From Pseudomonadota bacterium (GTDB lineage Bacteria; Desulfobacterota; Desulfobacteria; Desulfobacterales; Desulfolunaceae): a DNA stretch of 40,222 nucleotides. Numbering within the stretch: the stretch's first letter is position 1; every line of letters starts with the position of its first letter. Under the pieces are notes generated by a model. It searched no databases. It saw nothing but the letters and a program-made list of their open reading frames with translations, and was not told where the DNA came from. Below are positions 33,080 through 36,014 of this stretch, in pieces. Location: NCBI GenBank assembly GCA_018818835.1, contig JAHIRD010000041.1, forward strand, positions 1 to 40,222, written 5' to 3'. The translations under genes and the position numbers were made by a program.

Positions 33080-33304
33080 ATGCAAACGACACATTATAAG
33101 AATACAACCCCGGATACGACCTCATCGCTCCACCCTACAAAGTGGCGGCGTAGGGGAAAAGAGCGCCGTTTGACGGCCGACGGTTCGTCAAAGAGCCAGA
33201 GTGATTATTCAGAAAAAAGGACCTCCAGTGACAGGCGATTTCATTTTCTGGAATTTTTCTCAAAAATTATTTTCCCCCGGGGCCACGACGGGTTTGATCA
33301 TTAA
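33080..33304 (+). CDS. Basic 74-residue protein of unknown function
   Basis: A strong AAGGAGGAAGG lies directly before the ATG at 33080. The product is hydrophilic and strongly basic, with clusters WRRRGKERR and SEKRTSSDRRFHF, then a short hydrophobic stretch FLEFFSKIIFP near the end. The R-x-x-x-R-R repeats recall short GxDRR-type proteins seen in deltaproteobacteria, but I do not recognise a named family. It lies 250 bases upstream of the phoB-like gene, separated by a hairpin and the Pho-box-like array. Confidence 0.65.
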   Translation: MQTTHYKNTTPDTTSSLHPTKWRRRGKERRLTADGSSKSQSDYSEKRTSSDRRFHFLEFFSKIIFPRGHDGFDH

Positions 33305-33312
33305 ATTTACAG

Positions 33313-33363
33313 CCATGCCCGTGGTGGGTTATTTATTAAAATTAGACGGATGAACGGGCATGG
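33313..33363. repeat. 10-bp perfect inverted repeat after the 74-aa gene
   Basis: CCATGCCCGT (33313-33322) and ACGGGCATGG (33354-33363) enclose 31 bases. No T-run follows. It may mark the 3' end of the small gene's transcript. Confidence 0.55.
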
Positions 33364-33428
33364 TTCCCTCACCTTTGATTTTTCATCCCTTTCAAACCCC
33401 ATTAAATTTCAAACTATCTTGGCCCATC

Positions 33429-33468
33429 CTATCAGAAGTCTCATCAGATTCTCATCAGATTCTAACAC
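33429..33468 (+). promoter_or_regulatory. Pho-box-like array of four heptamers upstream of phoB
   Basis: CTATCAG (33429), CTCATCA (33440), CTCATCA (33451) and CTAACAC (33462) follow each other at exactly 11-bp intervals, with AT-rich 4-bp spacers (AAGT, GATT, GATT). This is the geometry of PhoB binding sites (7-bp half-site plus 4-bp spacer; E. coli half-site CTGTCAT). It ends 86 bases before the phoB-like ATG, so autoregulation is the natural reading. Confidence 0.6.
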
Positions 33469-33554
33469 GACAGCTCTAATTTCCCTGTTGAATGAATTTA
33501 ACTTTCAACATATTATGAACTCTAACCTGATCCTTATAAAACAAAAGGAAAAAA

Positions 33555-34247
33555 ATGCCCGTTAAATATATTATGGTTGTTGATGATGAAGAAGATATCC
33601 TTGAGCTGGTCAGCTACAACTTAATAAGGGAAGGGTACCGTGTCAGTTGCTTTGAAACCGGTGAAAAAGCCATGAAAGCAGCTCTTTTTGAAAACCCCGA
33701 TCTGATTGTTCTCGATCTGATGCTGCCGGGCCTGAGCGGCCTTGAAGTGACTCGCCAGCTCAGGCGGGACAAAAAAAGCGCCCATATCCCCATTATCATG
33801 CTTACAGCCAAGGGTGAGGAAGCAGATGTTGTGGCCGGTCTTGACATGGGAGCCGATGACTATGTGACCAAGCCCTTCAGCCCAAAAATTCTTAATGCAC
33901 GGATCAAAGCCCTTATACGACGAAAGGCGGATGAGGCCCATGACCAGGAGTCCGATGAGATCGTCATCGGTGATCTGTCTGTACACACGGGCCGCCATCA
34001 GGTGATCGCCGCCGGACAGGTGGTTGACCTGACGTACTCGGAATTCCAACTGCTGCTTCTTTTGTGCAAACGGCCGGGCTGGGTATTTACCCGGAACCAG
34101 ATCGTCGATGCCATCCATGGAGAAAATTACGCCGTAACGGACAGGAGTGTGGATGTGCTGGTGGTGGGGCTTAGAAAAAAACTCGGAACCTGTGGACCTG
34201 CCATCGAAACCGTCCGGGGTATCGGATACAGGTTCAAGGAAAATTAA
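33555..34247 (+). CDS. phoB: PhoB-like OmpR-family response regulator
   Basis: 230 residues. The receiver domain (1-120) has the acidic pocket Asp10-Asp11, the phospho-acceptor Asp54 (LIVLDLMLPG), Thr84 and Lys106 (VTKPF). The winged-helix DNA-binding domain (about 135-228) ends ETVRGIGYRF. AAAGGA lies 7 bases before the ATG. The sensor kinase gene begins directly after the stop codon (TAA then ATG). The phosphate assignment rests on overall PhoB/PhoR resemblance, the Pho-box-like repeats upstream and the phosphate genes nearby; other OmpR-type signals are possible. Confidence 0.85.
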   Translation: MPVKYIMVVDDEEDILELVSYNLIREGYRVSCFETGEKAMKAALFENPDLIVLDLMLPGLSGLEVTRQLRRDKKSAHIPIIMLTAKGEEADVVAGLDMGADDYVTKPFSPKILNARIKALIRRKADEAHDQESDEIVIGDLSVHTGRHQVIAAGQVVDLTYSEFQLLLLLCKRPGWVFTRNQIVDAIHGENYAVTDRSVDVLVVGLRKKLGTCGPAIETVRGIGYRFKEN

Positions 34248-36014
34248 ATGAAAAAGAAACGTCTACTCTGGCAGCTTTATCCATCCTATCTGTTTATTAC
34301 CCTTGCGGCCCTTTTAGCTGTAAGTCTTTTCACACTGAGTTCCCTGTCTCATTTTTTCCACAAGCAATACTCCAGTGACCTGGAAGCCCGGGCTCAGCTG
34401 TTTAAAAGCAGAATCGCAGACCTTTTACTTGGGGGCAGCTACCCTGCGCTGGATTTGGAATGCAGGGAATCGGGCAGGACATCAGGAACCCGACTGACTG
34501 TGATTCTGCCTTCGGGGATTGTGGTGGGGGACTCAGAAGAAAATCCCCAGGGAATGGACACTCACAATGATAGGCCCGAGGTGGCCAGGGCTCTTACCGG
34601 AAAAACAGGCACTTCGGTTCGTTTCAGCAGTACCCTCAATCAGAATATGATGTATGTAGCCATTCCGGTCTTCCATGACAATGACGTCCTTGCAGTTCTA
34701 AGAGCCTCAGTGGCGTTGTCGTCCATTGAATCCGAACTGAGACGCATCAGAATGAGAATCATCAGCGTGGGTTTTTTTGCCGCCATTCTCGCTGCCGCCA
34801 TCAGCCTCCTTGTGTCCCGACGTATCGCAAATCCCATCGAAGAGATGACTCGGGGGGTGGGCCATTTTGAAAAAGGCGACCTTGGCTACCGTCTTTTTGT
34901 CACGGACTCGTTTGAACTCGGTGGACTGGCAGAGGCCATGAACAGCATGGCCACCCAGTTGGATGAGAGAATAAAAATCGAAACACGCCAGAAAAACGAA
35001 CTAAAAGCCGTATTATCAGGAATGGCCGAAGGGGTCATCGCCATAGATAATGATAAAAACATCATCAGCATCAATGAGGCCGCAGCCCGTTTTTTTAAAA
35101 CCGATCCTGCTTCAGCCCCGGGCAGAACCCTTTCTGAAATCGTCCGCAACATCACCTTTCTTGATTTTGTAAAAATCTCTGTTAAAGATCAGCAAAACCA
35201 TGAACAGGATATCCTTTTAGACGACTGCGAAAACCGGACCCTTCACACCCGAACCTCCTGCCTGCATGATGAAAAAGACAGTCAGACTGGCATTCTCATT
35301 GTATTTAATGATGTGACGACCCTGAGGCGTCTTGAAACCATGCGAAAGGATTTTGCGGCCAACGTGTCCCATGAAATCAAGACCCCGTTGACCTCCATTC
35401 GGGGCTTTGTGGAAACACTTCTGAGCGATTGCAGTTCATTTTCCGAAAAACAGATTCATTTTTTGGGAATTATTGAAAAAAATGTCAATCGTCTCATGGC
35501 CATCATTGAGGATCTGCTCAAGCTCTCCCGGATTGAAACAGAACGCCCTGAGGATCTTCATTTTATCAAATCCAATATCCACAAGGTCCTTTCATCGGCC
35601 ATAACCACCCTGAAACCCGAAGCGGATAAAAAAAACATTGTGATTAGTCTGGACTGTGATCGGGATCTTACGGCACCCATGGACAGCTCCATGATTGAGC
35701 AGGCAGTCATCAATCTGATCGATAACGCCGTCAAATATTGCGGCAGCAACAGCCGGGTTGACATCCGGGTTGAAATAAAGGGCCAACAGGTTAATATTCA
35801 TGTGACCGACACGGGATTCGGCATTGAACGAGAGCACCTGCCCAGACTTTTTGAACGGTTCTACCGGACAGACAAAGCCCGGAGCAGACAATTGGGAGGG
35901 ACAGGCCTGGGCCTGGCCATTGTGAAACATATCATGCTGGCCCATAAAGGCGATGTTTCCGTGGAAAGCACCCTTGGCAAGGGCAGTGTGTTTACCATGC
36001 ATTTGCCAGGATAA
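34248..36014 (+). CDS. phoR: PhoR-like sensor histidine kinase
   Basis: 588 residues. Membrane helices at 13-33 and 171-190 bracket a periplasmic sensor region of about 135 residues; HAMP follows (191-245), then a PAS domain (about 252-355), the phospho-acceptor helix FAANVSHEIKTPLTSIRGF with His375, and the ATPase domain with the N box (NLIDNAVKY), G1 (DTGFGI), F box (LFERFYR) and G2 (GGTGLGLAI). E. coli PhoR has almost no periplasmic part; this long-sensor, PAS-containing form is the type common in Gram-positives and deltaproteobacteria. Zero-base spacing to phoB implies one operon. Confidence 0.88.
   Translation: MKKKRLLWQLYPSYLFITLAALLAVSLFTLSSLSHFFHKQYSSDLEARAQLFKSRIADLLLGGSYPALDLECRESGRTSGTRLTVILPSGIVVGDSEENPQGMDTHNDRPEVARALTGKTGTSVRFSSTLNQNMMYVAIPVFHDNDVLAVLRASVALSSIESELRRIRMRIISVGFFAAILAAAISLLVSRRIANPIEEMTRGVGHFEKGDLGYRLFVTDSFELGGLAEAMNSMATQLDERIKIETRQKNELKAVLSGMAEGVIAIDNDKNIISINEAAARFFKTDPASAPGRTLSEIVRNITFLDFVKISVKDQQNHEQDILLDDCENRTLHTRTSCLHDEKDSQTGILIVFNDVTTLRRLETMRKDFAANVSHEIKTPLTSIRGFVETLLSDCSSFSEKQIHFLGIIEKNVNRLMAIIEDLLKLSRIETERPEDLHFIKSNIHKVLSSAITTLKPEADKKNIVISLDCDRDLTAPMDSSMIEQAVINLIDNAVKYCGSNSRVDIRVEIKGQQVNIHVTDTGFGIEREHLPRLFERFYRTDKARSRQLGGTGLGLAIVKHIMLAHKGDVSVESTLGKGSVFTMHLPG

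Follow-up and report, generated by a model that had tools for sequence, protein, structure and literature searches.

The window analysed here, a stretch of 40,222 nucleotides from a 6.75-Mb genome of the Desulfobacterales (a sulfate-reducing order), encodes a phoB-like response regulator and, directly behind it, a histidine kinase. Upstream of both genes lies an array of four short direct repeats resembling a Pho box. The features are:

33429 to 33468, forward strand: Pho-box array CTATCAG / CTCATCA / CTCATCA / CTAACAC (seen in the sequence, with the relatives' matrix and with the genome-wide three-unit pattern)
33477 to 33482, forward strand: TAATTT, probably the -10 element of a promoter activated by PhoB, beginning 15 nt past the C of the fourth unit
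33488 to 33516, forward strand: possible second, weak sigma-70-like promoter TTGAAT-17-TATTAT (consensus scan, 9/12)
33555 to 34247, forward strand: phoB-like response regulator, 230 aa (NCBIfam TIGR02154; Response_reg and Trans_reg_C)
34248 to 36014, forward strand: phoR/pnpS-like histidine kinase, 588 aa (HAMP, PAS, HisKA, HATPase_c)

The original prediction had described four heptamers at exact 11-bp steps, and this is what the sequence contains: they occupy 33429-33435, 33440-33446, 33451-33457 and 33462-33468, with 11 bp from start to start and the spacers AAGT, GATT and GATT between them. The two central units are identical across the full 11 bp, and the array lies 86 bp upstream of the start codon of the phoB-like gene at 33555. 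An exact copy of CTCATCANNNNCTCATCA occurs only once in the window and, across the 6.75 Mb of the genome, again only at this array. The enterobacterial half-site CTGTCAT does not occur within 33429-33468.

For the regulator TIGR02154 (PhoB) is the best family, with 239.1 bits, which is below the curated cut-off of 296.2. Likewise the kinase stays below the cut-offs of its two NCBIfam profiles, scoring 388 bits for PnpS (cut-off 400) and 307 bits for PhoR (cut-off 334). Among named relatives the closest one found is Desulforapulum autotrophicum, whose PhoB is 78% identical and would place the genome in the Desulfobacterales. The genetic context also identifies the regulator as PhoB: a PhoR-type kinase adjoins it, and orthologues occur in pst-phoU-phoB operons, with 10 of 30 phoB loci (the best 30 of 42) having a PhoU motif in the 350 bp before the gene.

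An unannotated small ORF of 74 aa precedes the array (33080-33304, forward strand). It is rich in arginine (KWRRRG.ERR...DRR...IIFPRG) and by eye has a strong ribosome site, and it gave no Pfam match at E values up to 1. The ORF is present in seven of the 58 genomes searched, including our own, all from one family, about 250-410 bp upstream of phoB and on the same strand; an eighth case was seen by eye (G004, L146). The product seems to be a small protein specific to this family and associated with phoBR. A second Arg-rich small ORF (ERRFG.DRR.PFERR...RRFGW.RMGRW) stands before the first one in L124, L127, L128, L136 and L146.

For the comparison with relatives 58 genomes were searched, including our own; 42 had a match for phoB and 44 for pstS, and the best 30 loci were used for each gene. 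The training set comprised 29 pstS and 29 phoB regions, own genome excluded, each extending 350 bp upstream or up to the contig end. Among these best relatives' loci, pairs of CTAA[CT] at exactly 11 bp were found in 21 of 29 pstS and 8 of 29 phoB regions, as against none in either set of 29 on the opposite strand and a mean of 0.03 in shuffled regions; a looser pair pattern occurred on the opposite strand of one pstS region. A unit matrix was derived from the 38 of 58 regions over threshold, which contribute 107 units. Its consensus is CTAACA, where position 3 may be A or C and position 5 may be C or T (15 of the 107 units have C for A at position 3, and 17 have T for C at position 5). Three-unit arrays scoring at least 9 on the wrong strand were present in three of the 58 training regions (L149, L182, L185).

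Does the phoB array share its unit with other phosphate genes? The absence of the array from every other phosphate gene had been named as the finding that would speak against a phosphate operator, and pstS of the same genome does carry one. This array reads CTAACCCGATG CTAACACAACT CTAACA, with the units CTAACC, CTAACA and CTAACA. The prediction of a phoB operator therefore holds for the tandem 11-bp Pho-box-like array in front of the phoB-like gene; its proposal of CTCATCA as the half-site has to be given up, as neither the own pstS units nor the CTAACA-like units of the relatives have this spelling. The genome-wide search for CTCATCA pairs returned no further exact site, and the pstS upstream site was missing among the 64 places scanned that match with at most two mismatches, so that CTAACA was preferred. 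By eye, CTCATCA also stands in the middle of a three-unit array, between two CTAACA units, in the pstS upstream region of another genome (L203), and CTCATTC and CTCATAA are present in phoB arrays of relatives (L121, L128). Because the pstS arrays and the relatives' matrix read CTAACA, we regard CTCATCA on this sequence comparison as a tolerated off-consensus unit, and CTAACA as the unit of the lineage.

The arrays also agree in what follows them. With the last unit's C as zero, a TAnnnT starts at offset 15 in 18 of the 38 relatives' arrays, while any other offset outside the unit has it in at most three of 38. The own pstS (TATTTT) and the own phoB (TAATTT) have it in common. This spacing fits a PhoB-activated promoter in which the -35 element is replaced by the box; for E. 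coli, PMC1906773 gives a distance of 10 bp from the Pho box to the TAN3T/A -10 element downstream of it. TAATTT matches TATAAT poorly, and another weak promoter lies downstream (33488-33516); the sigma-70-like consensus scan of 33300-33600 found two sites, compared to 1.2 on average in shuffles.

We therefore read the array as the operator of a PhoB-activated promoter that drives phoBR, i.e. as a site of autoregulation, and put the probability of this reading at about 0.87. Binding, activation and phosphate dependence at the array are what we infer. Under phosphate shortage the PhoR/PnpS-like kinase would phosphorylate the PhoB-like regulator, whose molecules would then, following the known mode of PhoB, line up head-to-tail on the 11-bp units. 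The near-consensus CTAACAC is nearest to the promoter, and the three weaker units would be stacked upstream of it. Bound PhoB would recruit RNA polymerase to the -10 element at 33477-33482 and raise phoBR expression, and the same regulator would also read the stronger array of CTAACA units that precedes pstS and the pst genes. As a mechanism this is ordinary and known from textbooks; the departure from E. coli is the CTAACA spelling. The four units score 3.6, 3.3, 5.3 and 12.0 in their order, and the weakness of three of them (3.3-5.3 vs 12.0) counts against the operator reading.

Weak units could also mean that PhoB acts here as a brake or tuning factor, in a negative or threshold autoregulation. 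In the own genome the best three units of the phoB array reach 20.6, compared to 33.1 at pstS, and the phoB array is lower in nine of 12 genomes (of the 14 genomes with an array at phoB, two are without a fetched pstS locus). However, across the 12 genomes a Wilcoxon test gave no significant difference (p = 0.077 with three units, p = 0.27 with two), and weaker operators at phoB than at pstS were dropped as a general rule. In addition pstS arrays outnumber phoB arrays in the training of the matrix, and a -10 element downstream of the array at pstS-like spacing fits activation, so that we consider the brake unlikely.

Studying the phoB loci (the best 30 of 42) reveals an alternation with operon structure. 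Of the 20 genomes lacking a PhoU motif in the 350 bp before phoB, 14, own included, have a two-unit array score of at least 13 there, and of the ten with such a motif none has (Fisher p = 0.0003; 0.0004 without the own genome). It follows that phoB has its own box where the pst promoter does not carry it. Six of the 30 phoB genes have neither array nor phoU directly upstream (L126, L138, L142, L147, L148, L149). Some phosphate genes of the own genome are without the box. For each array size, the six best sites of the window include none upstream of its Na/Pi cotransporter or its PhoU_div gene, and a second Na/Pi cotransporter locus reaches at best 9.7 (two units) and 0.8 (three units). Without a top site before these genes, the box marks pst and phoBR and not every phosphate gene.

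Many regulators of the OmpR/PhoB family read tandem repeats at about 10-11 bp, and the array could in principle be bound by one of them other than PhoB. We think this very improbable, as such arrays accompany pstS and phoB in the relatives, which points to the phosphate regulator, and as the three-unit pattern (YTMAYM at 11-bp steps) has exactly two exact matches in the 6.75-Mb genome, one upstream of pstS and one upstream of this phoB. The sequence CTAACANNNNNCTAACA is found exactly in the genome only upstream of pstS. With up to one mismatch the three-unit pattern has 25 sites and the reversed control 18, so that the exact matches alone are distinctive; one of the 23 one-mismatch sites is an overlapping frame of the phoB array. 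From the number of one-mismatch sites we estimate about one exact match per genome by chance, and the weight of the two matches therefore rests on their positions and not on their count.

In the window itself the relatives' matrix ranks the array first among all positions of the two strands, with 17.3 for two, 20.6 for three and 24.1 for four units. That it is a functionless chance repeat is the least probable of all readings: short direct repeats are common and the two-unit score was reached in six of 100 first-order Markov windows, so that two units alone are unconvincing, but the three- and four-unit scores were reached in none of the 100, and the sole two exact genome matches both lie upstream of the expected genes.

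For pairs with mismatches the genome-wide counts are meaningless, because the reversed-pattern control returned more sites than the CTAACA pair pattern itself (665 vs 140). Apart from the pstS array, which accounts for two overlapping sites, 11 one-mismatch CTAACA pairs were viewed in their ORF contexts. Four of them fall within ORFs, and one (C155:34033) lies apparently between converging genes. Another pair, CTAACGGTATTCTAACA (L153, G000:C99:47980), is located between a gene that by eye is porin-like and a divergent gene, and is a possible candidate for a further member of the phosphate regulon. A second box in front of phoB was rejected: the two-unit stretch CTAACCTGATCCTTATAA (33522-33540, forward strand), beside the phoB ribosome site, has the second-best two-unit score of the window, but 22 of 100 random windows also reach this score, and visual inspection showed no such stretch at the corresponding place before phoB in G001.

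For Bacillus and the cyanobacteria the comparison covers the boxes alone. The PhoP box of Bacillus consists of TTAACA-type repeats at 11 bp and thus differs in one base from CTAACA, though its regulator belongs to the Firmicutes. The cyanobacterial SphR box, given in PMC1906773 as CTTAACCT with a minimum of three 11-bp repeats, has the same TAAC core, 11-bp period and three or more units, in another phylum. The Pho box of E. coli and the enterobacteria is alike in its 11-bp tandem direct repeats, its PhoB-type regulator and a TAN3T/A -10 element shortly downstream, as far as the available text of PMC4415409 and PMC1906773 goes, and E. coli phoB is also preceded by a Pho box. However, CTAACA differs from the enterobacterial CTGTCA at positions 3-4, and the relatives' matrix misses the E. 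coli phoB operator (best three-unit score -3.0). Repeat number is a further difference, with four units before the phoB of the window and between two and five, leniently counted, before pstS of the relatives. For another sulfate reducer, Desulfovibrio vulgaris, the excerpts of PMC3333781 and PMC6456213 describe (c/t)GT(n)AC direct repeats as the box of PhoB (DVU1083) and an 11-bp step in the lactate-operon site AGGTTACAGCATAGTTAC; an upstream PhoB site at phoB is stated there as validated (PMC6456213). This box shares with ours the direct repeats and the site at phoB, while its core is GTTAC-like and not CTAAC-like. A published Pho box of the Desulfobacterales or the CTAACA spelling was not found in the literature searched, which lay outside most subscription journals and all regulon databases. 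A text search for CTAACA led only to unrelated papers, and the term 'Pho box' is absent from the accessible parts of PMC5193443, PMC4046663 and PMC11887813.

The regulators differ in a residue that touches DNA. In the E. coli PhoB-DNA structure T194, V197, R201 and R219 make base contacts and R201 bonds a guanine (available portions of PMC3973317 and PMC3264566). Aligned to E. coli PhoB the window protein has S, V, G and R at these positions, and Gly201 instead of Arg is present in 29 of 30 PhoBs, own included (the best 30 of 42). Judged from the alignment, Gly201 would suit a half-site with AA in place of the GT of CTGTCA. E177 and E191, sigma-facing in the E. coli PhoB as far as the source text available covers it, align with N and T in the window PhoB, and the activating contact with sigma may thus differ from E. 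coli.

CTAACA arrays scoring at least 13 were also found before phoB-like genes of several other phyla, 15 on the coding and five on the opposite strand (76 named loci). On either strand such arrays occur at 17 of 36 Gly201 loci and 2 of 40 others (76 of 80 loci). We set the p value of this comparison (Fisher, 3e-5) aside, because the group of 40 contains many nearly identical Lachnospiraceae loci, which may encode regulators of another kind. The opposite-strand arrays belong to one Omnitrophota and four Lentisphaerae/Victivallaceae loci (L053, L057, L059, L067, L078), with L078 having arrays on both strands; perhaps a divergent gene is served there. CTAACA together with Gly201 PhoBs could represent a second Pho-box code, used by Desulfobacterales and several other phyla, from which CTGTCAT and Arg201 would be derived by a joint change of residue and half-site. 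We offer this only tentatively and hold it for somewhat less probable than its opposite.

The operator model, CTAACA at 11 bp with a -10 element at +15, is usable for finding the phosphate regulons of Desulfobacterales, and the lineage provides a natural comparison of how the recognition helix of PhoB changes in step with the half-site.
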